Shown: positions 29,984-51,893 of the stretch, in pieces
Numbering within the stretch: position 1 is the stretch's first letter
Layout: each line of letters begins with the position of its first letter
From: an uncultured Porticoccus sp.
GTDB taxonomy: Bacteria; Pseudomonadota; Gammaproteobacteria; Pseudomonadales; Porticoccaceae
Length of the DNA: 64,000 nucleotides
Assembly: GCF_913061305.1 (NCBI RefSeq)
Contig: NZ_CAJXST010000005.1
Coordinates: 1-64,000, forward strand
Direction of reading: 5' to 3'
Program-made: the position numbers and the translations under genes
The notes under the pieces: model-generated
What the model was told of the DNA's origin: nothing
What the model saw: only the letters and a program-made list of their open reading frames with translations
Database searches by the model: none

Positions 29984-30032
29984 TCTAATAATTATTATGT
30001 TGGCAAAGCCATCATTAACGTACTGTTAGAAT
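29984..30032. other. integron recombination site upstream of first cassette (attI- or attC-like)
   Basis: An imperfect palindrome from TCTAATA to TGTTAGA, with an inner hairpin ATGTTGGC-AAA-GCCATCAT. The core GTTAGA at 30025-30030 is the complement of TCTAAC at the left end of the attC after the next gene, which is exactly what is expected at the 5' boundary of a cassette (crossover between G30025 and T30026). Whether it is a worn attC or an attI cannot be said. Confidence 0.55.
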
Positions 30033-30048
30033 CAAATAAGGAACAGAA

Positions 30049-30744: not shown

Positions 30745-30826
30745 TTCTAACAATCACATCCAGCCGACCCACAAATGCGCCGCTTCGCTCTGCTTTTGCG
30801 GTCGGCTGATGTAAAGCGTTATACGC
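30745..30826 (+). other. integron attC recombination site
   Basis: TCTAACA at 30746-30752 forms the left core; CAGCCGAC pairs with GTCGGCTG as inner arms; GCGTTATACGC carries the right core GTTATAC (30818-30824). The stretch between the arms is itself GC-rich and partly self-complementary. The site starts two bases after the stop codon of the preceding gene, as cassette attC sites do. TTATAC after the crossover point belongs to the next cassette, and its complement GTATAAC stands at the start of that cassette's own attC at 32100. Confidence 0.88.
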
Positions 30827-30848
30827 AATAAGTTTATGAGAAATCTCA

Positions 30849-32105
30849 ATGTTTGGTCTCCAAGAATTATTTGATAAGCAGACAGAAGAGCAGTTTCGCC
30901 CAAACAAGCTAGGCGTTCGCATTCTAGAAAATGGGCTTGAAGGTATCGGTATTTTTATTACTGATTCGCAGAGAACGGATTTAGAAGATCAATTCTCTAA
31001 AATCGATTCGGGTACTTTAAACTTTGATTTTAGCGACGAACAACTTCATGAAGCTGGGTTCTCGTCTGAAGACGAACTTGAACCAAAGCTGAGGGAGGTC
31101 GTTGCAGGTCTTTCGAGTAAGGTTGAAAAATTTTCAAGTAATATAGATGAGACTATGCAAGGTCTGGTAGATAGCGTTACCGACAGTATGGCTGAGTCAA
31201 TTCTACAGACACTTGAAGATCGTATGGATGACATGCTAGATGACCAAGATGCGATTTATCATGTATTTGCCAATAACGTCGAATCAATTTGGGGCGAGCC
31301 CTTAGGTTTGATGCAAGGTCTGATTGTTATCGCTGACGAATCAGCGCAGGGATATGCTACGAGAACTGATGAGTACTTAAAGAATGACCTTATCAAAGAT
31401 CTTTTGGTAAGAATCCATGCAAAATCTGTTCAAGTAGCGAAAGAGATATTGACGTTGTTAAGAAATGGATTTCCAGATGGAGCGCAGGCACGATGGAGAA
31501 CGCTTCATGAGCTTTCAGTAATCAGCGTATTTATTTCCGAGCATGGAGAAGAAGTTGCTGAGCGTTACATCAGCCATGAAGCAATAGACACATACAAAGC
31601 AGCAGTCCAATATAATGACTACTACACTCGTTTAGGTGCTGAGCCAATTTCCCTAGAAGAAATGGAGCGTATGCGGAAAGATTACCTAAAACTACTTGAA
31701 CTGTATGGGCAAAGCTATAGGCATGACTATGGGTGGGCGGCAGATGCACTATCCTTAAAAAAACCAACTTTTCGAGACATAGAATCTTCCATTGCTCTTG
31801 ATCACCATCGCCCCTATTACAAAGCTGCAAGTGCAAATGTTCATGGCAATCCGACAGGCGTTCTGCAAAGTCTCGGCCTATTTCCCGAGGAAGATATTGT
31901 TCTTTCCGGTCCCAGCGACATTGGTCTGACAAGGCCTGCCCAATCAGCAGTTATCTCTTTGAATATTATTACTACAACAATGCTTACCCATGGAGCAAAT
32001 ATTGATTCTATTGTGGTTAGCAAAGCGATTGCCAAATATGGTCGTAAAGTAGAGGATGCATTTATTGCTGTTGAAATGGAAATATCACCTGCAGCTAGCG
32101 TATAA
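30849..32105 (+). CDS. DUF5677 family protein in integron cassette
   Basis: A 418-residue soluble protein. The N-terminal 130 residues are acidic and helical (SSKVEKFSSNIDETMQGL). The C-terminal part matches the DUF5677 family, with LLRNGFPDGAQARWRTLHEL, VFISEHGEEVAERYISHE and the later YYKAASANVHGNPTGVL. DUF5677 proteins are common in mobile DNA and some are thought to act in defence, but the activity is unknown to me. It is the second cassette ORF, 23 bases after the first attC. The stop codon TAA lies inside the left core of its attC. Confidence 0.75.
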   Translation: MFGLQELFDKQTEEQFRPNKLGVRILENGLEGIGIFITDSQRTDLEDQFSKIDSGTLNFDFSDEQLHEAGFSSEDELEPKLREVVAGLSSKVEKFSSNIDETMQGLVDSVTDSMAESILQTLEDRMDDMLDDQDAIYHVFANNVESIWGEPLGLMQGLIVIADESAQGYATRTDEYLKNDLIKDLLVRIHAKSVQVAKEILTLLRNGFPDGAQARWRTLHELSVISVFISEHGEEVAERYISHEAIDTYKAAVQYNDYYTRLGAEPISLEEMERMRKDYLKLLELYGQSYRHDYGWAADALSLKKPTFRDIESSIALDHHRPYYKAASANVHGNPTGVLQSLGLFPEEDIVLSGPSDIGLTRPAQSAVISLNIITTTMLTHGANIDSIVVSKAIAKYGRKVEDAFIAVEMEISPAASV

Positions 32106-32125
32106 CAAGTTGCAGCACGTGGACC
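32100..32125 (+). other. truncated attC site
   Basis: GTATAACAAGTTGCAGCACG and a few following bases look like the left half of an attC (core GTATAAC, then an arm). No matching right arm or GTTRRRY core follows, and unrelated sequence begins at about 32126. A deletion or insertion has cut the array here. Confidence 0.65.
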
Positions 32126-32178
32126 ATGTAGTTCCCCCGTTTTGATGGATACCTTCTGATAACTCAGGAGGTGGCGGT

Positions 32179-32340
32179 ATGCCAAAATACTTTTTGACGC
32201 GATGGAAGAGTCATACAAAGCTCTGGTCATTGAATATTGATTGCTGGTTGATTTTTTCTCGTAGTCATCGCGTTGCCTGGTTTCTGGTGCGTCGCGGCCG
32301 ACACCTCTGTCATACAAGATTCATCGGGTTGTCACGATAG
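32179..32340 (+). CDS. small ORF with strong ribosome site, possibly decayed transposase start
   Basis: A 53-residue frame beginning MPKYFLTRWKSHTK, preceded by AGGAGG eight bases before the ATG. MPKY followed by basic residues resembles the first residues of some IS3-type OrfA proteins, but the rest shows no helix-turn-helix and no similarity I recognise. It sits just past the cut attC, so it may be the scar of an insertion sequence. It might equally be non-coding. Confidence 0.25.
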   Translation: MPKYFLTRWKSHTKLWSLNIDCWLIFSRSHRVAWFLVRRGRHLCHTRFIGLSR

Positions 32341-32387
32341 ACCTCTAGCATCAGTCCTGATGTTAATGATCAGTCTTGGAGGCATAC

Positions 32388-33851
32388 GTGAAAAATACCC
32401 ATAAATTGGTGCTCGCTGCAGCACTGGCCTGGTCCAGCGTGCCAGCAATGGCGGAACAATGTATTGAAGGCGGCACTGTCGATTCCCCGACGCTGACCTG
32501 TACCGCGGTAGACAGTGGCAATATTGACGACGACCGAAACAATCTGTCGGTGACCGTCGAAAGCGATGCGCAGATTGTCCGTACGGAAGGACGCCCGGTG
32601 CAATTGGGCGGGTCGGATCAGTCGGTCGACAATCAGGGCCTGATCGAAAGCGGCGACGATGACGCGATCCGGGGCACGGGTTTGAACCTGACGGTTGACA
32701 ATTCCGGCACTATCCGTGGCGGGGACCGGGGTATCCGCCTTCAGGACGATGCTGACAATTTCACCCTGATCAACCGGGAAAGTGGTGAAATCTTCGCGCG
32801 CAATCAGGCCGTGCGATTGGACAATGGCGATGAACTGGAAAACGCTAACATCACCAATTACGGCCTGATCGAAAGCACCGAGGGCCGCGCCATCCAGAGC
32901 CGCGGACCGGGTGGCACTGTGATTAACCACGGCACGCTGAGGGGCGGCGAGGAAGTGGTCGAAGCGCGAGAGAACTTCACCATTGAGAACCGTGGCACCA
33001 TTGCCATCCGCGGGCTGGAGTGGGATGCGACGAATCGCAGCTGGTCTATAGACGGCTCGATTGCGACCGACGACGAGGACGGTGTGCAGTTCGCCAGCGG
33101 AACGGCGGATAACCACGGCGTGATTCTCGGTACCGATGACGGGATCGACGTCGACGAGGGGCGGGTGCACAACCATGCCACCGGCGTGATTGTCTCCACC
33201 GGATCTGCGAGTGACTCAATGGATGGCGGCAGCGGCATCGACGTGGATACATTATTTGAGCCTACGCAGGGCGATGTCCGCCCCGCAGGCCCACTGACCA
33301 TCATCAACGAAGGCTATATCGAAGGCGTCCGCGCCATCGGCACGGATGAGGCCAGCACCTCCGAGATCACCATCGAGAACAGCGGCACCCTGCGTGGCCG
33401 ATCCGGCACCGCCATCCAGCTTGCCCCCGAACAGGGCGATAGCAGTCTGCTGGTGTCGGGCGACAGCAAGATCTTCGGCGATGTGATCTTTGGTGCGGGC
33501 GACGATCTGCTAACTGTAGAGGGGCTGACCTCGGGCCTGCTGATTAACGGCATCTTCGACGGCGGCGCAGGCAACAACAGCGTTTTTTTGAACGACTACC
33601 TGCTGTCCGACATCCTCTCATTCAAGATCACGGACGATCTGATCAGTCTCTCCCTTGCAATCCTGAACAACGAGGTGCTCTCAGGGCAATTCATAAACTT
33701 TGCCACATGGACCTTTTCTTCTGATGGCCCTTTCTCCACCGAAGAACTCGCAAGCCGGTTTGCGACTCCAGTGCCAACACCCGCGATACTGCCCCTTTTC
33801 CTCCTTGGGCTTGCCGGGATCTGGGCCAGTCGAGCTCGTCTTTTGAAGTAG
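32388..33851 (+). CDS. PEP-CTERM/VPxxP-type sorted exoprotein with beta-helix repeats
   Basis: A 487-residue exported protein: signal peptide to about residue 22 (SVPAMA), then a long series of Asn/Gly/Asp-rich repeats (LTVDNSGTIRGGDRGI, FTIENRGTIAIRG, ITIENSGTLRGRSG), each near 25-45 residues, typical of right-handed beta-helix passengers. The C-terminus has the tripartite sorting signal: VPTPA, a hydrophobic helix (ILPLFLLGLAGIWA) and a basic end (RARLLK). It should be handled by an exosortase encoded elsewhere. The GTG at 32388 has GGAGG six bases upstream. Codon use and GC return to genome-like here. Confidence 0.85.
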   Translation: MKNTHKLVLAAALAWSSVPAMAEQCIEGGTVDSPTLTCTAVDSGNIDDDRNNLSVTVESDAQIVRTEGRPVQLGGSDQSVDNQGLIESGDDDAIRGTGLNLTVDNSGTIRGGDRGIRLQDDADNFTLINRESGEIFARNQAVRLDNGDELENANITNYGLIESTEGRAIQSRGPGGTVINHGTLRGGEEVVEARENFTIENRGTIAIRGLEWDATNRSWSIDGSIATDDEDGVQFASGTADNHGVILGTDDGIDVDEGRVHNHATGVIVSTGSASDSMDGGSGIDVDTLFEPTQGDVRPAGPLTIINEGYIEGVRAIGTDEASTSEITIENSGTLRGRSGTAIQLAPEQGDSSLLVSGDSKIFGDVIFGAGDDLLTVEGLTSGLLINGIFDGGAGNNSVFLNDYLLSDILSFKITDDLISLSLAILNNEVLSGQFINFATWTFSSDGPFSTEELASRFATPVPTPAILPLFLLGLAGIWASRARLLK

Positions 33852-34503: not shown

Positions 34504-35010
34504 TCAGCGTGCGGCGAAGCGGGCTCTCAGGCTCAGGGCCGCCAGGCCAATGCCCAGCAGCAGCAAGGTGCCGGGTGCGGGCACAGTGCCGCCGGGAGTT
34601 TGCTCAATAAGGAAGGCATAGTTGATGTATCCGTCACCCTGACCGTTGTCTCTGACCCAGGCACTGGTGTCACCCTCAATGTCGTAGATGCCGTTGTTGT
34701 TGGAATCTACCCGGTAGCTTTCGCCGAACAGGTCGACCCCGATATAGATTTGATCAAGCCAGACCATGTTGTTGATGGCCAGGGGATCGGCACTCACGGT
34801 TGAAATCGCGTAATTGCTGAAACTGCCGCCAAACAGCAGTGCGGCAACTTCCTGGCCAGTGTAGGTTGGCGTTGTGAAGTCACTCCAGCTCGGGCCATCG
34901 GCATTGTAAGTATCCCAACTGCCGACATAAATGGGTGCTGCGAACAGGGAGCTGCTGAATACCAGTGCACATATGGCTGCGCACTTCCCCAGGAATTTGT
35001 TTGTAATCAT
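34504..35010 (-). CDS. PEP-CTERM sorting domain protein
   Basis: A 168-residue exported protein: signal peptide to about residue 25 (SSSLFAA), a secreted domain with aromatic and acidic residues (DSNNNGIYDIEGDTSAWVRD), and a PEP-CTERM signal VPAPGTLLLLGIGLAALSLR with a basic tail. The start at 35010 is set by GGAGA six bases upstream. A sigma-54-type promoter lies about 92 bases before the start at 35103-35117. Expected location is the cell surface or matrix after exosortase processing. I do not recognise the middle domain. Confidence 0.85.
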   Translation of the reverse strand: MITNKFLGKCAAICALVFSSSLFAAPIYVGSWDTYNADGPSWSDFTTPTYTGQEVAALLFGGSFSNYAISTVSADPLAINNMVWLDQIYIGVDLFGESYRVDSNNNGIYDIEGDTSAWVRDNGQGDGYINYAFLIEQTPGGTVPAPGTLLLLGIGLAALSLRARFAAR

Positions 35011-35102
35011 GTTGTTCTCCAAATTTTACTGCCAGTTAGGTGGTCTTCGCTGTAGTGTCCAAACACTGCCAGACGTTGCCCAAGTCTTGTGGCTTATATT
35101 AG

Positions 35103-35117
35103 GCATAAAGTGTGCCA
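35103..35117 (-). promoter_or_regulatory. sigma-54 (RpoN) promoter, minus strand
   Basis: TGGCAC-ACTTT-ATGC differs from the consensus TGGCAC-N5-TTGC at one base and keeps the GG/GC spacing exactly. It faces the PEP-CTERM gene that starts at 35010. The PrsK/PrsR two-component system is known to drive PEP-CTERM genes through sigma-54 in some bacteria; its genes are not in this window. Confidence 0.7.
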
Positions 35118-35523
35118 TGTTTGTTATTTGATTTAATTACAATGGCTTAGTGGATATTCAGGGGTGTTGGTGGTGACTGACTGTAAATTATTTTGACAGT
35201 AAGCCGGGGAAGCACGTGATGCCAATTTTTAGAAGGTGAAAGAATTGGTAATAACTGAGAATAAATTAAAGGGGGAGGTGGGAATTCAAATGGAAAGGGG
35301 CATAACAATTATTTATTAACCACTTTTCGTTAGCTGTTTTCATCACTTAACATAATTCAGGTATGTTTAAACTATTATGACTACTTTTGGCTGCTTGCTT
35401 TGGCTACTTGCGCTGATCAAGCAGTTTGACTGCCAAGTGGCAAACGCTCATAAGGTTGGTCATCAACAGGTTATTTCCTGCCTGTAACGCGACTGTGATA
35501 ATAAGGTGGTTTTTGGGGGGCGC
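35118..35523. other. AT-rich intergenic stretch
   Basis: No gene is apparent. It holds a 13-base tandem pair, TTTGGCTGCTTGC and TTTGGCTACTTGC, near 35387-35412, of unknown meaning, and must contain the promoter of the following small membrane protein gene. Confidence 0.4.
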
Positions 35524-35808
35524 ATGCTCAATTTTCTGCGAATTTTTAGTTGGTTGCTGTTCACATTTGGTGTCGTTGGATTTCTGGCAGTTGCCCTGGG
35601 ATTTAAACCGGACATTGGCTCGGTAGCTTCGGCGCTCGGAATTCTTGGAATTCAGGTGATGTTTTCGGCGATGATTCTGTACGGATTCAGGCTGCACCGG
35701 CAAGGCAGAATTGGCCGTAGTAACCTTGTTTACGGTAGCTGGGTTGTTATCGTCGCCCTTGTGATTATCGGTCAGGTCTGGATTAATATCAGTGACATCA
35801 ACTTTTAA
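35524..35808 (+). CDS. small membrane protein, unknown
   Basis: A 94-residue protein with three hydrophobic segments (about 3-24, 36-54 and 66-88) and a short basic loop (RLHRQGRIGRSN). No family recognised. ATG 35524 is preceded by a run of six G that can serve as ribosome site. It lies between genes for exported proteins, but nothing ties it to them. Confidence 0.55.
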   Translation: MLNFLRIFSWLLFTFGVVGFLAVALGFKPDIGSVASALGILGIQVMFSAMILYGFRLHRQGRIGRSNLVYGSWVVIVALVIIGQVWINISDINF

Positions 35809-35986
35809 TAAAACGTAGCCCTGAAGTTGATGGGGTTCGGTTTAACGAGGTGCTGGGAATGATTTAATCCTGTTTCCCGGCCGTGTTTTTTACCCTTCGA
35901 TGTACAAAATCCGGATGTGCTTGAATTGCAACTATCGGGTGGGGAATGGAGAATTTTAACCTGATATGTCAAAAGGAGAAGGCATT

Positions 35987-36586
35987 ATGAAATCAGCTTT
36001 TACAGGCTTTATCTTGTTATTTACCTTGAGCTTTTCTGTTCATTCGGTCGCAGCTGACGGCATAAAGGAAGTGCTGGATCTGACCGAAAAGTATATCAAG
36101 TTGTGCCAGACAGATGACATCAAGCATGTCATGCCCAGTTTGGTTGCGGATGGCTTAAATAAATCTTCTCGGGGTAGCACACCCACAAAAACCATCGACG
36201 ATTGGGAGTTCGAAGTAGAAATTCCCGGTCAAGGATTCAAAATGTGGCTGTCTCATCAACAGTCGGCCGGGATAGATCCCCCCTTTATTTGTAATATCAG
36301 CGCTTCATTGAAAAGCGGTGATACACGAGATTTCAGCTTTATGAAATCTGATTTTTTACCGCTTATGATTAAGATTTTTGGTGCCCCGACCCGTACCGAA
36401 ACGCACCCAAAAAGGTCTGAAATCTACCATGCACAATGGTGCCAAACACCCAAAGGCGGCATGGAGCTCAGGGCAGTGAATCCCCAGGTCAAAAGATGGG
36501 CTAATGCCGGACAGGGTGCTGATGTTGTTAATGTATTCAGGATTGGCATGAGTTTGTGGCAGGGTAAAGATAAATATTGCCGATAA
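35987..36586 (+). CDS. secreted protein, unknown
   Basis: A 199-residue protein with a clear signal peptide (MKSAFTGFILLFTLSFSVHSVAA) and a mature part with four cysteines (LCQTD, FICNI, QWCQT, KYCR), consistent with periplasmic disulfides. I recognise no domain. ATG 35987 has AAGGAG eight bases upstream; the start at 35966 would bury the signal peptide. No sigma-54 site is seen before it, unlike its PEP-CTERM neighbours. Confidence 0.65.
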   Translation: MKSAFTGFILLFTLSFSVHSVAADGIKEVLDLTEKYIKLCQTDDIKHVMPSLVADGLNKSSRGSTPTKTIDDWEFEVEIPGQGFKMWLSHQQSAGIDPPFICNISASLKSGDTRDFSFMKSDFLPLMIKIFGAPTRTETHPKRSEIYHAQWCQTPKGGMELRAVNPQVKRWANAGQGADVVNVFRIGMSLWQGKDKYCR

Positions 36587-36770
36587 CTTCCAACGCTGCT
36601 TTAAACGGGGAGTTTTCATTCAAAGCGGTATTTGACTTCCAGCCTTCGGCTTCGTTGTAAAGCTGGTAAAAGGATCATGGCGTTGAGGTCGTCAGATTCC
36701 TTTACATTACTGGGATTCCAGTATCAAAGGATTTTCATTAACCGATTGATTTATAGCTATATTTTTATTT

Positions 36771-36785
36771 TGGCCTGGATTTTGC
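36771..36785 (+). promoter_or_regulatory. sigma-54 (RpoN) promoter, plus strand
   Basis: TGGCCT-GGATT-TTGC keeps the invariant GG and GC at the right spacing with a perfect -12 part. It lies 83 bases before the PEP-CTERM start codon at 36869, close to the 92 bases seen for the other PEP-CTERM gene. Confidence 0.6.
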
Positions 36786-36868
36786 TTATGCCTTAAACTT
36801 GAATGTAAAAAGTGACGATTGATTTATCGTCAAACAATGAATATATCGAAAAGAAGGGGTACTAAATA

Positions 36869-37531
36869 ATGCGTGGTCAATACAAAAAAATTCTGTTCGG
36901 ATTGGGCTTGGGAATGGCCATGTCGGTTAGCGCCTTCAGTGTTCATGCGAGTCCCATTACCAGCGGGCTGTTCACTCCCGATGCCGTTGAAGACTACGAA
37001 GGCACCCCTGGCAATCGAACAATTTTAACCACGTTGTTTGGCGGAGACGTGAGTGTTGTTGATGGGTCAGTAAATCATCGGTCGGTTGATGCGGGTAATT
37101 GGACTGACTTCAGGTCTTCAAGTGCGATTGTCCCGAATTCCGGTTCACGCTTTGGTGTAGGGTATGGGTTCGGTAGCTATACCCTGGATTTTTCTGGACT
37201 GGGCGGCATTTTCGGATTCAGCGGCTGGTTCAGTGCTGCTGGTGCCGGTTCGGAGTTTATCGAGTTTTTTGGTCTTGCCGCGGAATCGCTGGATATCGTT
37301 TCCAGGGCTACCGGCTTTGGCCCGGGTGACGGCACTATGGAGTTTGTGAGCGTGCTGTCTACGGTTGCGATTGGGTCAATCACCATTTCCGGGTCAGAGA
37401 TTGCATCGGACGATCTGGCCTATACAGCATCCCGGACTACCGGTCAGATTCCAGTCCCCGGTACTCTGTTGCTGGTTGGTCTGGGCCTGGCTGGCCTGGG
37501 TCTGCAACGCCGGAGACGTGCTCTGGCCTGA
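36869..37531 (+). CDS. PEP-CTERM sorting domain protein
   Basis: A 220-residue exported protein: signal peptide to about residue 27 (SVSAFSVHA), a Gly/Ser/Phe-rich beta-type domain, and a classic PEP-CTERM end, IPVPGTLLLVGLGLAGLGL followed by QRRRRALA. AAGGGG precedes the ATG, and a sigma-54-type promoter lies upstream. The middle part resembles other short PEP-CTERM proteins of unknown role. Processing by an exosortase not in this window is expected. Confidence 0.87.
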   Translation: MRGQYKKILFGLGLGMAMSVSAFSVHASPITSGLFTPDAVEDYEGTPGNRTILTTLFGGDVSVVDGSVNHRSVDAGNWTDFRSSSAIVPNSGSRFGVGYGFGSYTLDFSGLGGIFGFSGWFSAAGAGSEFIEFFGLAAESLDIVSRATGFGPGDGTMEFVSVLSTVAIGSITISGSEIASDDLAYTASRTTGQIPVPGTLLLVGLGLAGLGLQRRRRALA

Positions 37532-43132: not shown

Positions 43133-43873
43133 TCAGAGGGCCCGGTGGGCAAGATTGGTAATCATGCTGCCGATATCAAAGGTTTCCACCATATCGGCAC
43201 CGCGGTTGAACCAGTCGATGGCCTGATCGGGGTCTTCCACCTCGTAGACCACCACAGTGCTTTGCAGTTCGTCCAGCGTGGCCCCTTCCGGCACCTTGTC
43301 GGTGTCGCAGAAAATAAATTCCGGTTGGATATCGGTGATCCAGGGACCCTGTCGGTCCTGCCAGTCCTTGAGTACCACGCCGAGCCGGGGAAACTGCTGT
43401 TCGTGGGCATACTGGATAAATTCGTCGCTGAAACTGATCAGTACGCACTGCCCGATAACCGGGTCAAGTAGCCCGGTGACAATGCGGTAGGCGTTTTCGA
43501 TGCCGGCAGTCTCCAGCCCGGTGCGCTTCAGTTCGATAAAGGCCGTGACATCGGGATGCTCCGACAACAACCCGACCAGCGCCGAGAGGGGTGTGATGTG
43601 CTCGCTGGCGAATGCCTGGCCCAGCCGTCCCGGTTCGTTGGCCGGGTATTGGCGCAGTTCATCCAGGGTCAACAGATGAATGGCGTTTTCCACGCCGCTG
43701 ATACGGGTCATGAGAGTATCGTGGTAAAGCACCGGCTGTTGGTCGGCGCTGAACAGGATGTCGGTCTCGATAAATTTCGCCCGGGCTTCAATCGCTTTGC
43801 TCATGCCGAGCAGGGTGTTTTCCGGGTAGTGCCTGGGGTAACCCCGGTGGGCGACCAGTCGCTTCGCTATCAT
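43133..43873 (-). CDS. glycerophosphodiester phosphodiesterase
   Basis: A 246-residue GDPD TIM-barrel enzyme without signal peptide, hence UgpQ-like and cytoplasmic. Catalytic features are LVAHRGYPRHYPENTL (first His and the PEN motif), FIETDILFSADQQPVLYHD (metal ligands and second His) and FIELKR. It releases glycerol-3-phosphate from glycerophosphodiesters for the dehydrogenase encoded directly after it. AGGAT lies upstream of ATG 43873. Confidence 0.9.
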   Translation of the reverse strand: MIAKRLVAHRGYPRHYPENTLLGMSKAIEARAKFIETDILFSADQQPVLYHDTLMTRISGVENAIHLLTLDELRQYPANEPGRLGQAFASEHITPLSALVGLLSEHPDVTAFIELKRTGLETAGIENAYRIVTGLLDPVIGQCVLISFSDEFIQYAHEQQFPRLGVVLKDWQDRQGPWITDIQPEFIFCDTDKVPEGATLDELQSTVVVYEVEDPDQAIDWFNRGADMVETFDIGSMITNLAHRAL

Positions 43874-43958
43874 GATGATATCCTGTCCTGCGTCTATCTC
43901 TTCATCCTAGAGCAGGGCAGGGGTGACGACAATCGCTATCGGGGTGGATGATGGCTGT

Positions 43959-44804
43959 TCAGCCCAGTTTTTTCTCACCGGCATCGACGGATTGCAGGAT
44001 CAGTGTGTTGATGGTCATCGGACCGACACCGCCGGGCACCGGGGTCAGGGCGGCGGCACGATCGTGCAGGGGCGCCAGTTCAATATCGCCGACCCCGCCG
44101 GGGTGGTAACCGGCATCCACCACCACCGCGCCATCCCTGATCCAGTCGGCCTTGATGAATTCGGGTTTTCCCACTGCGCCGACCACCAGATCGGCACCAC
44201 CGATGATCGCCGGTAAATTTTCCGTCCGGGAGTGGCAGATGGTCACCGTGGCATTGGCATTGAGCAGCATCATGGCCATGGGTTTGCCGAGGATCGGGCT
44301 GCGGCCAACGACCACGGCGTGTTTGCCTGCCAGGGGGATGTCGTAGGCGGCCAATAGACGCATGATGCCCTGGGGTGTGGCAGAGCCATAGGCGAACTCA
44401 CCCATGGCCATGCGGCCAAAACCGAGGCAGGTGACACCGTCCACGTCCTTTTCCAGGGCGATGCTGTCAAAACAGAGACGCTCGTCAACTTGTTCCGGTA
44501 CCGGGTGCTGCAACAAAATGCCATGGCAGTTGGGGTTGGCATTCAGCTCCTGAATTTTCGCCAGCAGCTGTTCGGTGGTGGTGGAATCGGGCATTTCTAC
44601 CGCGATGGATTCCATGCCCACCCGTTTGCAGGCATTCTGCTTCATCTTCACATAGGTGGCCGATGCCGGGTCGCCGCCCACCAGAATGGTGGCGAGAATC
44701 GGTGCCTGGCCAGCACTTTTCTGTTTCAGTCGCGCTACCCGTTCGCTCAGTTCGGCCTCGGTCTGTTGGGCGACGGCTTTGCCATCGAGAATGATTGCTG
44801 CCAT
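43959..44804 (-). CDS. folD: bifunctional methylenetetrahydrofolate dehydrogenase/cyclohydrolase
   Basis: FolD interconverts 5,10-methylene-THF and 10-formyl-THF with NADP. The 281-residue protein has [15 protein letters not shown] with the catalytic Lys, [44 protein letters not shown] and [17 protein letters not shown] 44804 ([14 protein letters not shown]) fits the family; the longer frame to 44852 does not. It precedes the tRNA cluster, as in Pseudomonas. Confidence 0.95.
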
Positions 44805-44969
44805 GGTGGGTTTGACTCCTGAGTCCGGGTGGGAAGCCGTGTATTTTCGCACTTCGCCTCTTGTCTGTGAAGCGAATAACCGATGGCACCCGATCCGGCT
44901 TTTTGATTGACGAAGCGGGTTGGCGTCAGTATTATGCGCTGCTCTCGAAATGAGGGTTCAGTGTGATAA

Positions 44970-45046
44970 CGGGGAATAGCGCAGTCTGGTAGCGCGCCTG
45001 CTTTGGGAGCAGGATGTCGGGGGTTCGAATCCCTCTTCCCCGACCA
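44970..45046 (+). tRNA. tRNA-Pro (anticodon TGG)
   Basis: Cloverleaf with acceptor CGGGGAA/TTCCCCG, anticodon loop CTTTGGGA giving TGG, T loop GGTTCGAATCC and encoded CCA. First of three adjacent tRNAs. Confidence 0.97.
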
Positions 45047-45083
45047 CCCTCATCTTCGGAAACTGTTGTAAACTGCTTGTTGA

Positions 45084-45160
45084 GCGCCCGTAGCTCAGCT
45101 GGATAGAGCAACGGCCTTCTAAGCCGTAGGTCGCAGGTTCGAATCCTGCCGGGCGTGCCA
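45084..45160 (+). tRNA. tRNA-Arg (anticodon TCT)
   Basis: Acceptor GCGCCCG/CGGGCGT, anticodon loop CTTCTAA giving TCT, T loop GGTTCGAATCC, encoded CCA. Middle tRNA of the cluster. Confidence 0.97.
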
Positions 45161-45197
45161 TCCAGTTCTGGCGCAATAGACAGCAAGTAATACAATG

Positions 45198-45273
45198 GTG
45201 GCTGTAGCTCAGTTGGTAGAGCACAGGATTGTGATTCCTGTGGTCGCGGGTTCGATCCCCGTCAGCCACCCCA
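45198..45273 (+). tRNA. tRNA-His (anticodon GTG)
   Basis: Starts GTGGCTG with the extra 5' G paired to C typical of tRNA-His; anticodon loop TTGTGAT giving GTG; T loop GGTTCGATCCC; encoded CCA. A terminator follows. Its 3' half and the terminator are found again twice downstream. Confidence 0.97.
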
Positions 45274-45310
45274 TCTTTCAGAAGGCGGTCCACTCGGGCC
45301 GCCTTTTTCA
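45240..45310 (+). repeat. tRNA-His 3' end plus terminator, copy 1 (intact)
   Basis: The T arm and acceptor end of tRNA-His with its terminator. This is the parent copy of two downstream repeats at 47061-47132 and 48118-48174; such direct repeats are the usual mark of elements inserted at a tRNA gene. Confidence 0.85.
45281..45308 (+). terminator. terminator of the tRNA cluster
   Basis: AAGGCGG-TCCACTCGGG-CCGCCTT with a T-run directly after tRNA-His. The same hairpin recurs at 47104-47131. Confidence 0.85.
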
Positions 45311-45843
45311 TTGGTTTTGCTCCGTCCTGAATAGGCTCAGTTCCCATACGTCCACTGACGCCTGCACAGAAAGCAAAGGAGTTTTGGAATCGCAACTATC
45401 TGAAGTCAGCCAGAAGGCTCGGTCCTTTCAGCCAGTTATTGATGTCTGCAGCAAGACGATGGGGTGACCGTTGTAAAAAAACGATCTGGCCAGAGGCAAA
45501 TCCAGGACCTGGGCATTACCCGAGTTTGCCGATTCCTGAATATTTCCTGTCAAGCGCCTGCGGGCAAGTGGGGTTCTGGGTCGCATGGTCAGCATGTCCC
45601 CACTAACCTTCGTGCTATTACCAAAAGAGATGTAGACGCTATCTCTAGATACGCAATAATGAAGCTTCAGGATTCAGGCCCCGTTGCGCTGAATGCTAGG
45701 ATCTAGCGAGATTGCTCATGCTATGGATGGGTAGTCCCGATCTAACCATCGCGAGCCCGAGTATCCGCAGTAGGTTTGATAGTTGGAAAGGTGGGCGTAC
45801 ATCCGTCTGATAATACTGCAAATCCAGGATTCTTGAGGCAACG
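45311..45843. other. stretch without convincing gene after tRNA-His
   Basis: One frame of 80 codons (45464-45706) is open but shows no similarity, ribosome site or coding bias I trust. The DNA is likely the decayed left part of the first inserted unit. Confidence 0.4.
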
Positions 45844-46029
45844 ACACCCTGCTGAATGATTGCTTGATGTGTTGAGGGCGCTTTTTTTGAACCAAATGAA
45901 GATGAAACGGTGATATTGATGGGCTGTTACCGGCGTGGAAACAGTGTGAATATCTCCATCCCGAGAATGGAGGGATTTTCCCTGAACTACTGGAGTAGCT
46001 TAACGATCGGTTTGACTGGTGCAGTGTGA
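45844..46029 (+). pseudogene. decayed copy of the small Cys-rich protein gene (paralogue of 47326-47601)
   Basis: The reading TLLNDCLMC, stop, then in another frame EPNEDETVILMGCYRRGN and GFSLNYW lines up with VLNNCLVC, EPDEEEVRMLMGCYCCGN and GFSLEQW of the intact gene in the next unit. It carries a stop and at least one frameshift, and two of the cysteines of the second metal knuckle are replaced (CYCC to CYRR). So both units once held the same kind of gene. Confidence 0.75.
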
Positions 46030-46202
46030 GAGATACGGTGGTTTGCTATGCGACCGGGTGATTCTGTGGCGAAGGAATGCGAGCCGCTTGAAGGCGGAGA
46101 ACGAGCTGATTCTAAGGCGCCTTCTCTATTTGTCGGCAAGCGGATGCCGGGTGTTTATCAGGTGATAAGTAGGATCCGGTACTACCTGTGGAGTATTTAG
46201 GA

Positions 46203-47021
46203 ATGATGCAAAGAGCTATTTTAGTAAATGATTTCCACGGTAGTGATTTTTTTATTGATGACCTGAAAAATCTTTTCAGAAAAAGAAAGTTTTTCCTCAG
46301 ATGCCAATCAATAGTTCCCGTCTCTGAGCGATCAAAGGGAAGTCGGTCGTATGAAATTTTAATTGGTTTTGAAGAAAACTCTTTCTCTGATGCCATGAAT
46401 GTTTCTGGCCTTGTTGAAAATTTGGAATTTATGGGAAGATCCGTTCTGATGGATCATTTGGTGATGAGCGGCGTGGTGAACGCTAGTATCATTGAGTACT
46501 TCTGTACGGACGAATATTCCAGGCTTCATCTTAATCTCTCCGGCCACAGCATAAACAAATCCTATTTCATGGCGCGAATTTTACGTCTTTTGCGCTGTGG
46601 CGTTCTCCCTCCTAACCGAATTTGTTTTGAGTTGACTGAAACTGCAAAAATAGATGATTTGCAAAAAACAGCAACGTTTTTACATCAGGCGAAGGAGTTG
46701 GGTTGTAGCTTTGCCCTGGACGATTTTGGGAAGGGGTTTTCCTCGCTTGATTATGTGGTCAATTTACCAATTGATACCATTAAAATCGACGGTAGTATTA
46801 TCAAACATGTGGCAACCAATTCCCGCGCCAGAGCTGCTTTGAAGTCGATAGTAGCTCTGGCATCTGAAGTTGGTGCCGACACTGTCGCCGAGTGTGTGGA
46901 AAACCTTAAGCAATTTTATGTTGTGAAGGAAATGGGTGTCGATTTTATTCAGGGTGCTTTGGTTGGTATGCCAAAGCCTTTTTATGGCTCTTACTATTCG
47001 AAAAAAACCTACACTGTATAA
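46203..47021 (+). CDS. EAL-domain protein, probable c-di-GMP phosphodiesterase
   Basis: A 272-residue stand-alone EAL domain with no membrane helix or sensor domain. The signature reads YEILIGF, so the Glu of EAL is kept. Other catalytic motifs are NLSG, ELTET, LDDFGKGFSS, IKIDGS, AECVE and FIQGALVGMP. The key metal and base residues therefore appear present, though the loops are shorter than usual. It is AT-rich and lies in the first unit after tRNA-His. ATG 46203 and 46206 follow AGGA very closely; GTG 46188 is an alternative start. Confidence 0.8.
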   Translation: MMQRAILVNDFHGSDFFIDDLKNLFRKRKFFLRCQSIVPVSERSKGSRSYEILIGFEENSFSDAMNVSGLVENLEFMGRSVLMDHLVMSGVVNASIIEYFCTDEYSRLHLNLSGHSINKSYFMARILRLLRCGVLPPNRICFELTETAKIDDLQKTATFLHQAKELGCSFALDDFGKGFSSLDYVVNLPIDTIKIDGSIIKHVATNSRARAALKSIVALASEVGADTVAECVENLKQFYVVKEMGVDFIQGALVGMPKPFYGSYYSKKTYTV

Positions 47022-47060
47022 GGTTTTTTGTGGTTTTCTATATAGGAAAGATGGTGTTGC

Positions 47061-47132
47061 GTGATCGCCGGTTCGGTCCCCCGTCAGCCATCTCATCTTC
47101 CAGAAGGCGGTCCACTCGGGCCGCCTTTTTTA
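47061..47132 (+). repeat. tRNA-His 3' end plus terminator, copy 2
   Basis: About 85 percent like 45240-45310 by eye: T arm, acceptor end (GTCAGCCA) and a perfect copy of the terminator stem AAGGCGG...CCGCCTT with T-run. The 5' half of the tRNA is missing, so it is a fragment rather than a gene. It probably ends the EAL-carrying unit and can terminate its transcript. Confidence 0.85.
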
Positions 47133-47164
47133 ATGCCTGGTCAACTTTCATCTTGCTTTGATAC

Positions 47165-47329
47165 ATGGTCTTTGCAGTGGGGCTGTCTGTGTTGATGCAT
47201 GCTTTCTTCTTATTCCTTGCTGACTTTCGGGTTATGCCTAAAGGAGAAATAGACCTGCTGCTTTACGTCATTTATTGTGAATTTGCTGTTTTTGGTTTGA
47301 TAAATTTTATGTTGGTGACTAAAGCGTGA
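47165..47329 (+). CDS. possible 54-residue membrane protein
   Basis: A short frame with two hydrophobic segments (about 1-19 and 30-52). Its TGA overlaps the GTG of the following Cys-rich gene in a GTGA junction, which favours coding, but no ribosome site is visible before ATG 47165. Confidence 0.35.
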   Translation: MVFAVGLSVLMHAFFLFLADFRVMPKGEIDLLLYVIYCEFAVFGLINFMLVTKA

Positions 47330-47601
47330 ATAGGGCGATCAGCGTTTCATTTAAATCCGACCAACCTCCTAATGTGCTGAATAACTGTCTGGTGTGCAGA
47401 GGGAGGCATTTTTATATTGAACCAGACGAAGAAGAAGTTCGGATGTTGATGGGTTGTTACTGCTGTGGCAATCGAGTGGGCATGCCCATTGGTAATATTT
47501 CAGGCTTTTCACTGGAACAATGGGAAAACCCTGTTAATAGAAGATGGATGTACGAAAGCCTGGCACCTCTCTATGGGTTGTGGAATCAATCAAATGAGTA
47601 A
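47326..47601 (+). CDS. small Cys-rich (zinc-ribbon-like) protein, unknown
   Basis: A 91-residue protein with CLVC at about residues 22-25 and CYCC at about 44-47, spaced like the two knuckles of a zinc ribbon, then a short helical tail. I recognise no named family. A degenerate copy is found at 45844-46029 in the preceding unit, so this gene type belongs to the units inserted at tRNA-His. The start is GTG 47326, coupled to a small upstream frame. Confidence 0.6.
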   Translation: MNRAISVSFKSDQPPNVLNNCLVCRGRHFYIEPDEEEVRMLMGCYCCGNRVGMPIGNISGFSLEQWENPVNRRWMYESLAPLYGLWNQSNE

Positions 47602-47716
47602 TTTTAATCCGTTTGCATCCGGGGATAGGTTTTGCCGGGAAGAGGAGATGAAACCATGTTGTGCATCCCTGCTCGCCTTTGTTGATTAACGATGATGTCT
47701 AGGGAAGATGAGGTGA

Positions 47717-47944
47717 ATGAGTATGCAAGCCTTGGAAAATAAGTTCAGAAAAAACGAGTCTTTTGCGAGGGGGTTCCTGGAAGGTTTATTTGGCCTCCCG
47801 GGATCTCAATATGCTGCCTGTAGCAGTAGTCTCCGCCATGCGCTGCATTGGCTCGATGGTTGGGTTGAAGGTAGCAGCCTACGAGTGGGCGGTGGTAGTC
47901 AACTGCCGAATTGGTTATTTAACGAAGACGAGAATACAGCGTAA
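47717..47944 (+). CDS. small hypothetical protein
   Basis: A 75-residue soluble protein, MSMQALENKFRKNESFARGF then LHWLDGWVEGS. The pattern FARGFLEG ... WLDGWVEG resembles short proteins found in other gammaproteobacteria, without known function. ATG 47717 is preceded by GAGGTG at six bases. It lies in the second unit downstream of the Cys-rich gene. Confidence 0.5.
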   Translation: MSMQALENKFRKNESFARGFLEGLFGLPGSQYAACSSSLRHALHWLDGWVEGSSLRVGGGSQLPNWLFNEDENTA

Positions 47945-48117
47945 GTCACTGGTTGTTTATTGCTCTGTTGATGGCAGACCTTTGCTGATGCTGAAGAAGA
48001 TCGGGGTCGTTTCAGAAGGCCTCAATCCGCTTATGTAATTGATAACCCGGTTACATAACAGAATGTGGCTGGAGGACGACACTTCCACGCTTTCGATATC
48101 ATTGCACCGGTTCCGGT

Positions 48118-48174
48118 GCGGTTCACAAGCCACCCCATATTTCAGAAGACCGTCCAGTCGGTTCGCTTTTTTTT
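48118..48174 (+). repeat. tRNA-His 3' end plus terminator, copy 3 (most decayed)
   Basis: GGTTC, then AGCCACCCCAT, TTTCAGAAG and GTCCA.TCGG followed by eight T line up with copies 1 and 2, with a gap in the T arm and several changes in the terminator stem. A perfect palindrome GCACCGG-TT-CCGGTGC (48104-48119) directly adjoins it. Confidence 0.75.
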
Positions 48175-48428
48175 GTCCCGCCTCTTCGTCCCTGCCCGGG
48201 CTGCCCTCCTGTAACCGCAGGTGCTTCTGCAGGGCTGCATAACGTCTGCTGGCAACTGAGCAGCAATAGTTTGCTGACCAATCTGTGCATTTCCTGCTGG
48301 GCGGTTTCTTCTTCTGCGCCGGGAGGGCACTCACAGCACCAATGCAGGCATTCCTGGCCGGACTCGGCATCGACTATGCGAAGGCACGGGCGACCCTCTT
48401 TGAGGTGAGTGTGGATGAGATACCCCAT
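48123..48428 (-). CDS. small hypothetical protein whose C-terminus reads into the tRNA-His repeat
   Basis: A 101-residue frame: MGYLIHTHLKEGRPCLRIVD, then a Cys/Glu-rich part (CLHWCCECPPGAEEETAQQE) and a basic Gly/Lys-rich tail. GGAGGG lies seven bases before ATG 48428. The first 65 residues look like a real protein; the last 17 or so are encoded by the antisense strand of repeat copy 3, so the original end may have been lost when the unit inserted. Function unknown. Confidence 0.5.
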   Translation of the reverse strand: MGYLIHTHLKEGRPCLRIVDAESGQECLHWCCECPPGAEEETAQQEMHRLVSKLLLLSCQQTLCSPAEAPAVTGGQPGQGRRGGTKKSEPTGRSSEIWGGL

Positions 48429-48714
48429 ATTCTGACCCTCCGCATAAAACCTAATAATAACCATTCTCATTTATAGTAGGCGGGTGTCGAAAGTCCGTCA
48501 AGCCTGTCTTTTCACTGGACTAATGTGCATGGAGCGGGAGTTGGTCTGCAGATGGCAACCTTTGCCGCTGAAGTTGACTGTGATCAGGCCAAGCTTGAGG
48601 GCTAAGTAGTTAGAGTGACGAACAAAATCGTTGCTCAATGACACAGAGAGTACTACTTTAGGGTGGTTATATAACAAAAGTTCGGTTTGCCCTGAAGTTA
48701 AGGAATGGCTTGAA

Positions 48715-49932
48715 ATGGACGTTTTGTCCCGAAAGAAATTATGGGTTGTGATTCTTTATGCCTTTATCGGCATGGTCTGGGTGCTGGGCAGTGACTGGCT
48801 GCTATTTCATCTTTTTGGTGACATTGAAACCACGTTTTTAGGCAGCGCGATCAAGGGGCTTTTATTTGTTGCGCTGATGTCTTTACTGCTCTATTTCCTG
48901 TTGTACCGGCTTGAATGCTCTGAAAAACGTGCGCAACAGGCGGAAGTCGCCTCTGAGTTGAACTTGTTTACACTGCCGGAATTCTTTGCTGCGGCTCCAG
49001 TTATCGCTTATGTGCTTGAGCCTCTGGATACAGGGTCTAATGCCACCTGGGTTAGCCCCAACATCATGGAGGTGCTGCAATACTCAATAGAGGATGCACT
49101 GCTACCTGGCTGGTGGGAGAAACATCTTCATCCGGATGATCGCGAGGAAGCTATTGAAAGCAGTCAAAGAATTTTTGCGAAAGGAAAAGGTGTACATGAA
49201 TACCGGTTCCAGCGTGGAGATGGCGACTATATTTTCGTGCAGGATGAGCTGCATCGGTTAGCCTCACCGGTTCCCCGTTTTATCGGGGTATGGACGGATA
49301 TCAGCCAGCGATACCAACTGGAGCAGAATGCAATTCAATACGCAGGGCAGTTGGAACAGGCGATGCTCCAGACAGTTGATGCCGTCGCCAAGTTAACGGA
49401 ACTCAGAGATCCCTACACGTCGGGTCATGAAAAACGAGTCGGCGAAATTGCTGCGGCGATTGCGGCCGAAATGGGATTTGATAAAAAGTTTCAGGAGGGA
49501 TTGAGCATCGCCGGTTTACTGCACGACATTGGTAAAATCGGTATACCTTCCGAAATTCTGGGTAAGCCCACCAGCTTGAGTGCCGGAGAATATGCCCTGG
49601 TGAAGGAGCACGCCGAGTTCGGTTATGAGGTGCTGAAAAATATCGATTTCCCCTGGCCGGTGGCTGACATTGTCCTGCAGCATCACGAACGGATCGATGG
49701 CAGCGGTTACCCTCTGGGGTTGAAGGGCCCGCAGATCATCATAGAGGCTCGAATCGTTGCCATTGCCGATGTGGTGGAGTCGATGGCCTCCCACCGCCCC
49801 TATCGTCCGGGGTTGGGCATTGATGTGGCTCTGGCTGAAATTGAGCAAAATGCCGGCAAGTTATATGACCTGGATGCCGTCGCTGCCTGCCTGAGACTGT
49901 TCAGGGACAAAGGTTATGCCATCACTGGATAA
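48715..49932 (+). CDS. membrane PAS and HD-GYP domain protein, c-di-GMP phosphodiesterase
   Basis: A 405-residue protein: two membrane helices (about 10-28 and 40-62), a PAS domain (about 80-205; VIAYVLEP, WEKHLHPDDREE, GVWTDISQR), a short coiled segment, and an HD-GYP domain (about 220-400). HD-GYP motifs are all visible: SGHEKRVGEIA, LLHDIGKIGIP, HHERIDGSGYPLGL and ADVVESMASHRPYRP. It should hydrolyse c-di-GMP in response to a PAS-sensed signal. ATG 48715 has AAGGA ten bases upstream; the frame is open back to 48631. Confidence 0.87.
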   Translation: MDVLSRKKLWVVILYAFIGMVWVLGSDWLLFHLFGDIETTFLGSAIKGLLFVALMSLLLYFLLYRLECSEKRAQQAEVASELNLFTLPEFFAAAPVIAYVLEPLDTGSNATWVSPNIMEVLQYSIEDALLPGWWEKHLHPDDREEAIESSQRIFAKGKGVHEYRFQRGDGDYIFVQDELHRLASPVPRFIGVWTDISQRYQLEQNAIQYAGQLEQAMLQTVDAVAKLTELRDPYTSGHEKRVGEIAAAIAAEMGFDKKFQEGLSIAGLLHDIGKIGIPSEILGKPTSLSAGEYALVKEHAEFGYEVLKNIDFPWPVADIVLQHHERIDGSGYPLGLKGPQIIIEARIVAIADVVESMASHRPYRPGLGIDVALAEIEQNAGKLYDLDAVAACLRLFRDKGYAITG

Positions 49933-50219
49933 GCAGCTAAAGGTTGCGCTCCCATGCGGGCTTCTGTCTGCTCTATTGATATTTCCGGGGTGGTCGTCTG
50001 GCCATTGACGAATCAAAACCACCCGATCAAGAGATACTGTTTTTATCTGCCATCTGGAATTATTATTCAGTTGGTAGGCTCTAGCTTCATAAAATGTCAG
50101 TGTCAGGGTGTATGCCGTTGTTCAGGGTATTGATAAAAAAATAGCAACGTCGATTGATCTTTTATGAAAGCGCCTGCGTACACGGGCGGTGTCTCTAAAA
50201 AACTGCGGAAGGGACTGCT

Positions 50220-51893
50220 ATGACCGATGCAACCATACGTTTCTTCTCCTGGAGTCAAAAGCACAGCAGTCAACTTCGGTGGCTGATGGTTCCGGTGATC
50301 CTGGGATTAATGATCGGGGTTTTTGCGCTGGTCTATGCCACTGGCGGTATCAAGTACGTATTTTCCCACTCCATGTATATACCCGTACTACTTGGCGGGG
50401 TAGTTTTCGGGATTACCGGTGGCATTCTGATTGGTCTTCTCGGGGGCTTCGTACTTGGTCCCATGATGCCGATTGATACGGTTACCGGTGAAATGCAATT
50501 GACGATCAACTGGTTGTATCGAACAGGCTTTTTTGTGCTGATTGGCGCTATCGCGGGCATTGGCAGTGACGCTATTCGCCAGTATATAAGGCATCTCTGG
50601 TGGGTGTCACGCCATGATGAACACTCCGGTCTACCAAACCAGTTGGCCCTCAACGATGCGCTGACCAAGCCGTATAACGAACCGACAGTATTGGCGTTGG
50701 TGCTGGTATCCGTAGAAAATATTTCCGAGCTGAAAATAGCCTTCGGCCCCCAGGTTGCTCACACAATTATTCGTCAACTGGCTGATTATAGTGGTGAGGT
50801 TTTGTCCGGGTTGCAGCTGGTGTGTCGCACCGGCCTCCAGGATATCTGCTTTATTGTAGCTACCCATGATAGCGGTCGCCTGAATGAGGAATTGCACCAG
50901 TTGATCGGCGTTTACCAACAGCCCGTGTTTTACCAGGACATCCCTCTACATGCTGATATCAAAATTGCAGTGGTCGGCGTAGAAAATGGCAGCCTGGCGG
51001 AAGTCTGTCTACAGCGGGCCGAGTCGACGTTGCTGATCGCGCGGGAAAAAGGTCAGCATCTGGCTAGCTACACGGGTGATAACGAGGCGGATATTAATGA
51101 CACCATCCATTTACTGGGCGAATTGAAACAGGCACTGGAGACTGGCCAGTTGGAAATGTACTACCAACCCAAGGTCTCTGCGCGGGATGGACATGTTCAA
51201 AGTGTGGAGGCGCTGATTCGCTGGCACCATCCGGAAATGGGCAGTATTCCACCCGGTAAATTTATTCCGAGGGCCGAGAAGAGCACACTGATCAACCAGT
51301 TGACTGACTATGCCCTGGATGCCAGTCTGGCTCAGCTGGTGCGTTGGCGTGAGGCCGGCCTTGAAGTGGGTATGGCGGTCAATGTGTCTGCCGGGGACCT
51401 GGTGGACCCGGAATTTGCTGTTCGAGTGACAAGCCTGTTGGAAAAACACGGGGTTCCCGGTCATTTGTTGGAATTGGAAATTACGGAAGGCAGTTTGATT
51501 TTTGATTCTAATCAAAGCATCAACGAACTGACCAGCCTTTCAGGGGCCAATATTTCGATTGCCATTGATGACTTTGGTACCGGTTATTCGTCCCTGAAGT
51601 ATCTTCATGCGTTACCGGCATCGGTGATTAAGGTGGACCAGAGCTTTATTTTTGCTTTGCCGGACGATGAGAGTGCTGCAAGCATTGTGGAAATGGCCAG
51701 ACCCCTTGCCAACAAGCTGGGCATGCGAATCGTAGCTGAAGGGGTGGAAACCCTTGAGGCCCTGGATTTTCTGGTGGCGCAGGATTTTGATCTTTTGCAG
51801 GGTTATCTCATTGCAGCCCCGATGGCTGCCGAGGACTTTACCCGCTGGTACCTGGATTTACCAACTCCCGGCTATTGGCATCCCAGCCGCTGA
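50220..51893 (+). CDS. membrane protein with degenerate GGDEF and active-looking EAL domain
   Basis: A 557-residue protein. N-terminal membrane helices (about 20-120, four or five) are followed by a GGDEF-like domain (about 135-285) in which the signature is replaced by RTGLQD, so cyclase activity is unlikely. The EAL domain (about 300-545) keeps EALIRW, NVSAGDL, EITEGSL, IDDFGTGYSS, IKVDQSF and AEGVET. It is therefore probably a phosphodiesterase with the GGDEF part as a GTP sensor or dimer module. It follows the HD-GYP gene after 287 bases. Confidence 0.87.
   Translation: MTDATIRFFSWSQKHSSQLRWLMVPVILGLMIGVFALVYATGGIKYVFSHSMYIPVLLGGVVFGITGGILIGLLGGFVLGPMMPIDTVTGEMQLTINWLYRTGFFVLIGAIAGIGSDAIRQYIRHLWWVSRHDEHSGLPNQLALNDALTKPYNEPTVLALVLVSVENISELKIAFGPQVAHTIIRQLADYSGEVLSGLQLVCRTGLQDICFIVATHDSGRLNEELHQLIGVYQQPVFYQDIPLHADIKIAVVGVENGSLAEVCLQRAESTLLIAREKGQHLASYTGDNEADINDTIHLLGELKQALETGQLEMYYQPKVSARDGHVQSVEALIRWHHPEMGSIPPGKFIPRAEKSTLINQLTDYALDASLAQLVRWREAGLEVGMAVNVSAGDLVDPEFAVRVTSLLEKHGVPGHLLELEITEGSLIFDSNQSINELTSLSGANISIAIDDFGTGYSSLKYLHALPASVIKVDQSFIFALPDDESAASIVEMARPLANKLGMRIVAEGVETLEALDFLVAQDFDLLQGYLIAAPMAAEDFTRWYLDLPTPGYWHPSR

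Follow-up and report, generated by a model that had tools for sequence, protein, structure and literature searches.

The 64,000-nucleotide stretch studied here (the window), from contig NZ_CAJXST010000005.1 of an uncultured Porticoccus sp., carries directly behind an intact tRNA-His gene two short AT-rich units, each followed by a further copy of the 3' end of that tRNA and its terminator. The array is best read as small insertions stacked one behind the other, an arrangement already known in general, and it is fairly probable that the two units are integrase-less relics bounded by attachment (att) sites, which accreted behind tRNA-His in the manner of cis-mobilizable elements (CIMEs). On comparison of related genomes, stacked insertion at tRNA-His appears well supported, because four close relatives have the site empty, two genomes have it occupied, and the last repeat adjoins the ancestral flank.

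Tail repeats and occupancy of the tRNA-His locus

The locus consists of the following parts, with G numbers denoting genomes:

45198..45273, + strand: intact tRNA-His, anticodon GTG (ARAGORN; Rfam RF00005, 70.6 bits), third gene of a Pro-Arg-His cluster and putative integration target
45225..45313, + strand: repeat copy 1, attL-like, the tRNA-His 3' half plus an intrinsic terminator with a 12-bp stem (hairpin -20.6 kcal/mol, z -5.4)
45314..47058, + strand: unit 1, about 1.75 kb, GC 0.453; 88.6% identical in G015, absent from G002, G012, G005 and G009
47059..47135, + strand: repeat copy 2, internal and att-like, the tRNA-His 3' end plus terminator hairpin (-20.6 kcal/mol)
47136..48117, + strand: unit 2, about 1.0 kb, GC 0.453; 90.4% identical in G015, absent from the same four close relatives
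48121..48177, + strand: repeat copy 3, attR-like, with a weak terminator (hairpin -6.9 kcal/mol, z -1.6), adjoining the ancestral downstream flank
48178..48600, no strand: downstream flank of the occupied haplotype, 98.9% identical to G015 over 48225-48600

The repeats lie in register at 45257-45313 (taken as the reference), 47079-47135 (91% over 57 nt) and 48121-48177 (70%), the best 45 nt of copy 3 being 84% identical to the tRNA-His tail, and these three are all that a search of 44000-49500 found. Over the 57-nt core they match at 57, 52 and 40 bases, compared with 29 at the window's next best place, 30 on the other strand and 34 at the best place for 200 shuffled queries, which set the chance level; BLAST E values, scaled to one genome, were 3.6e-20 for copy 2 and 1.1e-7 for copy 3. 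When the 3' halves of the window's five tRNAs were tested alike, extra tail copies were found for tRNA-His only, the sole other match being Arg against Arg, which are two real genes. Copies 1 and 2 fold into an identical 12-bp terminator hairpin and copy 3 retains a weak one; besides tRNA, no RNA family reached its Rfam gathering score in 44800-48800.

An earlier reading of the window made from its letters alone (the sequence-only reading) had proposed three direct repeats of the tRNA-His 3' end and terminator, diverged to different degrees, and the match counts and identities given above bear this out. The same holds for the two AT-rich units of about 1.75 and 1.0 kb that it delimited, whose GC content of 0.453 each compares with 0.545 for the window. 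Its repeat copies were real and their borders needed adjustment, in that the repeat of copy 2 extends upstream to at least the equivalent of 45240, perhaps to about 45225. The perfect palindrome that it placed at 48104-48119 is instead a perfect 7-bp inverted repeat around a TT centre, overlapping the decayed T-arm of copy 3.

The Pro-Arg-His cluster (44970-45273) was sought in 58 genomes, and the surrounding stretches from 19 of them were compared with the window. Occupancy of the locus, which the sequence-only reading had proposed to compare among relatives and whose uniformity would have refuted it, varies within the genus: among 17 congeneric genomes, the window's included, two are occupied (the window genome and G015) and four are empty (G002, G012, G005 and G009), while in eight that are more distant tRNA-His is present beside other genes and no repeat was seen, one (G004) is cut by a contig end, and tRNA-His was not found in two. 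G002, G012 and G005 each show tRNA-His, one terminator, and then the flank that resumes at about 48226 in the window, with no unit 1 or unit 2 sequence; G012 is a metagenome-assembled genome (MAG) with about 5% contamination, and its contig at the locus is 233 kb long. In G009 the site is empty too, and a larger part of the downstream flank has been lost there. G015 (MAG UBA2511) holds both units, at 88.6% and 90.4% identity, and three repeats, of which copy 2 is badly decayed. An apparently split tRNA-Arg in G015, with a 26-nt overlap, was dismissed, the gap being a run of N from scaffolding.

The two states thus read tRNA, terminator, flank where the site is empty and tRNA, terminator, unit 1, tail, unit 2, tail, flank where it is occupied. 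Two units with three tails, the last of them on the old flank, is the n+1 topology expected from two insertions at the end of a tRNA gene. Duplication of a block containing the tRNA and its neighbour would put a unit, not the old flank, behind the last tail.

A general intergenic repeat, which the sequence-only reading had named as its other ground for refutation, was rejected: the tail query matched in 84 of 112 family genomes, and a tail repeat at the tRNA-His locus was seen in the window genome and G015 only, although the terminator part of the query is specific to near relatives and a different tail repeat in a distant genome could escape it. Among the weaker matches listed elsewhere were short tRNA-like pieces in G030, G062, G065 and G128, terminator-like pieces in G008, G012, G015, G002, G005 and G095, and a match at G000:C5:183270 that sits at tRNA-Val and tRNA-Asp genes.

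Cargo and kinship of the two units

Both units carry small coding sequences, listed here with the support for each:

45850..45999, + strand: copy of a zinc-ribbon-like gene in unit 1, broken in the window by a stop and a frame shift; 65% identical over 149 nt to unit 2 (E 6.6e-13)
46203..47021, + strand (open reading frame, ORF, 46188-47021 with an upstream GTG): stand-alone EAL-domain protein, 272 aa; PF00563 E 2.1e-44, 152 bits against a cut-off of 31.3
47165..47329, + strand: short hydrophobic ORF, 54 aa, with a stop codon that overlaps the start of the following gene; in G015 its own start codon is uncertain
47326..47601, + strand: 91-aa protein whose cysteines are spaced CxxC...CxCC; assigned to no named family above cut-off, sub-threshold PHD_4 at E 0.019
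47717..47944, + strand: 75-aa protein resembling ribosome modulation factor (RMF); hhalign against an alignment of six RMFs gave probability 95.4, E 2e-8

Scans of six unit ORFs with Pfam, PHROGs and NCBIfam placed only the EAL protein above a cut-off and gave one weak RMF match; the 54-aa ORF had no family match in them. Aligned to solved EAL proteins (best PDB entries 8pps and 5xgb), the EAL protein has the expected catalytic-type residues at the E, N, E, DD, K, E and Q positions and does not have the R of the ExLxR motif. The product is here described as a putative cyclic di-GMP (c-di-GMP) phosphodiesterase-like protein with catalytic-type residues except that R. Among the matches listed from 84,980 species genomes, a scan that may not include the records of the window's own genome, its nearest relative is the G015 copy (95%, DDNV01000015.1), and the next by E-value shares 37% over residues 109-264.

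The 91-aa protein may be called zinc-ribbon-like from its cysteines. Its gene is present in two of 112 family genomes and in one of 369 class genomes (the window's own), and a search of plasmids, phages and viral contigs for relatives of the protein gave no match. The 75-aa protein resembles RMF, probably as a divergent relative: its best outside matches are RMFs from other genomes of the order (E 0.001-0.008), and a viral match spans 28 residues only. It scores 16.3 bits against the curated NCBIfam RMF cut-off of 40 (E 0.0066), so that it is named RMF-like, not RMF; Pfam gave nothing for it at E 1, and PF04957 finds only the genome's ordinary RMF, which is located elsewhere.

Between the window and G015, dS is 0.328 and dN 0.033 for the zinc-ribbon-like gene (15 and 7 changes), 0.114 and 0.006 for the RMF-like gene (5 and 1 changes, small counts), and 0.123 and 0.022 for the EAL gene (20 and 14 changes), where dS and dN are the synonymous and nonsynonymous divergences. 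With dN well below dS, the cargo looks as if it were kept by selection while the repeats and spacers decay. Copy 2, about 90% like the tRNA tail in the window, is heavily decayed in G015, although the divergence of the non-coding unit DNA around it is no more than about 20%. This contrast might be due to gene conversion in the window genome, with copy 1 as the donor.

The units are paralogous in that the zinc-ribbon-like module is common to both. At the protein level, the stretch in unit 1 is matched with E 4.4e-7 for the window and 2.0e-8 for G015, where it lacks the internal stop and has an unclear start, and weak collinear matches between the units lie on either side of the module (E 0.1 and 0.037). 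No second copy of the units was found elsewhere in the genome, in which two short matches only were obtained (E 0.007 and 0.3). Judging from these comparisons, the array may represent either two related elements that arrived in turn or one that was doubled long ago. The shared module of 149 nt and the weak matches beside it would also suit a single att-bounded unit that entered, was duplicated in tandem through its repeats and then diverged, so that the EAL gene was acquired by one copy and the RMF-like gene retained by the other. We consider this course of events unlikely, given that only about 150 nt are clearly common and that the units differ in length and in their third genes, which are unrelated; furthermore, each unit is more alike between the genomes (88.6% and 90.4%) than the two are mutually, so that such a duplication would predate the split of the two genomes' units.

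Exchange of the occupied haplotype

Directly past copy 3, over 48225-48600, the window is 86.6-88.2% identical to G002, G012 and G005 and 98.9% identical to G015. The outer flanks group differently, the window with G012 and G002, and G015 with G009 and G005: the window is nearest G012 upstream (43133-44852, 95.8%) and in tex (95.7%), and G015 is nearest G009 upstream and in tex (95.9% and 95.6%), followed by G005 (95.5% and 92.7%). Over 48720-49932, the window and G015 are the least alike of the pairs that include the window (78.3%). In an rpoB tree, G015 is placed among the genomes whose site is empty (G009, G005, G012 and G002), and the window branches outside all of these (supports 87-100; the G012 rpoB is suspect). 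The G012 sequence, on a zero-length branch and 96-99% identical to each of the other five close genomes, looks chimeric.

These discordant flank similarities show that the occupied haplotype was exchanged between lineages, at least in part by homologous recombination, which clearly had a share in spreading the locus. The EAL gene (46203-47021) adds a sharp break between the window and G015, with dS of 0.34 up to nucleotide 270 of the gene and 0.042 beyond it, where there are no amino-acid changes, which points to piecemeal exchange. Outside the exchanged tracts, the unit parts are as diverged as the genomes themselves (dS about 0.33, compared with 0.25 for folD and 0.43 for tex). Such divergence fits either an old insertion that was later lost by some genomes or an old transfer.

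Could homologous recombination have done all the work, with gene cassettes moved on anchors in the tRNA cluster and a repeat or the downstream flank, and with no site-specific recombinase? The near-identity of 48225-48600 and of unit parts between the window and G015, set in discordant outer flanks, and the dS break within the EAL gene speak for this account. Nevertheless, it accounts for the spread of the array but not for how each unit first came to be bounded on both sides by tRNA-tail repeats, and we regard it as quite unlikely. Site-specific insertion followed by homologous exchange remains the reading that we prefer.

Beyond the array, an HD-GYP/PAS protein and a GGDEF-EAL protein are encoded directly after it (48631-51893) and vary among relatives. 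The GGDEF-EAL gene is absent from the locus in G005, and G009 is without the HD-GYP gene and most of the GGDEF-EAL gene. With these variable genes, several c-di-GMP genes are assembled behind tRNA-His in addition to the EAL gene that unit 1 carries. The window has two more low-GC stretches, at 29501-32500 and 34751-37250 (1-kb GC down to 0.379 and 0.425), and ORFs in or near them (32376-33851, 34504-35022 and 36869-37531) have tails that we take to be PEP-CTERM-like.

Integrases, comparable systems and meaning

In the reading proposed here, two related non-autonomous units would have inserted successively at the tRNA-His 3' end, probably unit 2 first, through a recombinase that was most likely a tRNA-His-specific tyrosine integrase, either lost with the rest of its element or acting from a phage or another element. 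Each unit would have supplied a copy of the tRNA 3' half and terminator, with the tRNA staying whole and terminated, and the original tail would have been displaced downstream to become copy 3. The units would now be relics that have lost mobility and hold conserved cargo for EAL, zinc-ribbon-like and RMF-like proteins, and the haplotype would have spread at least in part by homologous recombination, with the near-identical tRNA cluster and the downstream flank as anchors.

The sequence-only reading had suggested satellite-like elements or relics that used a helper integrase. The name of relics is supported by the decayed repeats and by the broken zinc-ribbon-like gene of unit 1, and a helper is plausible from tRNA-His phages found elsewhere. 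On IMG/VR contig L178, 50 nt (2320-2369) are identical to window 45225-45274, and on contig L179, 49 nt (1641-1689) are identical to 45226-45274, each about 120 nt behind a tyrosine integrase gene; these tRNA-His 3' halves are apparently phage attachment (attP) sites. Burkholderia phage Magia has the same 49-nt core at 90%, with an annotated terminator 33 nt later and then a tyrosine integrase. Phage BgManors32 has the tRNA-His core with only hypothetical proteins annotated within 2 kb, and the other phage matches to the core, among those listed, are mostly from Vibrio phages, many with an annotated tRNA-His gene. For the tyrosine integrase using tRNA-His that the sequence-only reading had proposed to look for, there are thus candidates in the two viral contigs and Magia, and none in the neighbourhood of tRNA-His among the PF00589 matches listed for the congeners.

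Several observations weigh against this reading. No recombinase or integrase remnant was recognised by the Pfam, PHROGs and NCBIfam scans of the unit ORFs, and among the matches listed, no PF00589 integrase lies near tRNA-His in the 17 congeneric genomes; the only same-contig ones listed are one in G010, about 35 kb upstream, and those in G009, a single-contig genome, of which the nearest is about 246 kb from tRNA-His. The extension of the repeat into the anticodon arm, where the phage cores also reach, is at most suggestive for copy 2, where fractions of 0.03 and 0.02 of random 24-mers score equally, and for copy 3 these fractions are 0.56 and 0.16. The decay gradient in the window (100, 91 and 70%) suits the proposed order of insertion, but G015 breaks it, its copy 2 being worse than its copy 3. 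The spacer from copy 3 to the flank is 52 bp, compared with 41 bp behind the terminator in the empty sites (counted by eye), a mismatch that makes the empty sites unlike clean products of excision from the array and speaks against simple excision as their origin. Finally, the cores in the phages stop 1 nt beyond the tRNA, and the repeats of the window continue for about 40 nt more, through the terminator; we infer from this that tail and terminator arrived together, as a single block of the inserted elements.

The window's contig has no PF00589 match, in agreement with the sequence-only reading that the units carry no integrase. The seven matches in the genome lie on its contigs C1, C4 and C6, and they were rejected as obvious helpers, since no tRNA was present in the flanking stretches retrieved for those on C6, on C1 and near the start of C4; two of the C4 integrases, of 301 and 304 aa, are by their size presumably XerC and XerD. 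A defence island was also rejected, the four unit ORFs tested giving no PADLOC match at E 0.01.

The phage integrases beside tRNA-His attP sites, together with the differing occupancy among close relatives, would allow the units to be active satellites, which the integrase of a tRNA-His phage passing through the cell could still move in trans. This seems very improbable, because the repeats are decayed, above all copy 3 and copy 2 of G015, and the unit parts outside the recombination tracts have diverged as the genomes have (dS about 0.33 compared with 0.25-0.43). A search of the 112 family genomes, run without a positive control, gave no relative of the L178 integrase; two further viral relatives of it share 37-38%. 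Features of phage satellites, such as an own integrase or a packaging or replication module, were not found in the unit ORFs by Pfam and PHROGs. More speculative than relic insertions, and in our view improbable, is a system of one-operon cassettes, each ending in a tRNA-His 3' half and terminator, that stack behind tRNA-His, where the integrases of tRNA-His phages, acting in trans, and homologous recombination between tails would load and shuffle them. If it were true, the tRNA would stay functional and the cargo would be insulated, and the locus would be an integrase-less, integron-like gene-stacking site with signalling and dormancy genes.

The relic reading draws on CIMEs, which PMC5704250 presents as decayed integrative and conjugative elements (ICEs) or integrative and mobilizable elements (IMEs) that lack genes for integration and transfer, are still bounded by attL and attR, and can lie in tandem at one target gene. 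The units of the window resemble them in being bounded by attL/attR-like direct repeats at a target gene, in having no integration or transfer genes recognised (no PF00589 on the contig, six ORFs scanned), and in occupying a site that is empty in close relatives. They differ in size (1.0 and 1.75 kb), in having no integrase-bearing partner adjoining, and in showing no trace of ICE or IME genes in the scanned ORFs, which such short units could have lost. The array would thus work like a CIME stack by analogy, and descent from an ICE or IME is not part of the claim.

Among the islands of Dehalococcoides at ssrA, as portrayed in PMC3146451, several lie in tandem, each with a direct repeat of the ssrA 3' end; 15 are without an integration module, the repeat is 20 bp long, and the recombinase, where an integrase is present, is a serine recombinase. 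In the window, the target is tRNA-His and the repeat spans about 75-90 nt including the terminator. Magia and the two IMG/VR contigs share the tRNA-His 3' half with the window and, unlike it, have their own tyrosine integrase and cores that stop at the tRNA end. Tycheposons and other phage satellites are helper-dependent elements, some of them from marine bacteria. The window units are far smaller than these, and no integrase, replication or packaging gene is recognisable in them. Tycheposons and other phage satellites are mentioned in PMC11389934.

Accretion at a tRNA gene can be seen clearly here on a small scale, with both empty and occupied sites among close relatives. That the repeated block includes the terminator of the tRNA suggests how an insertion can spare the tRNA. 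Two routes appear together, in that integration probably built the array and homologous exchange helped to spread it. If one-operon units of this kind are common behind tRNA genes, island finders that seek an integrase would miss them.

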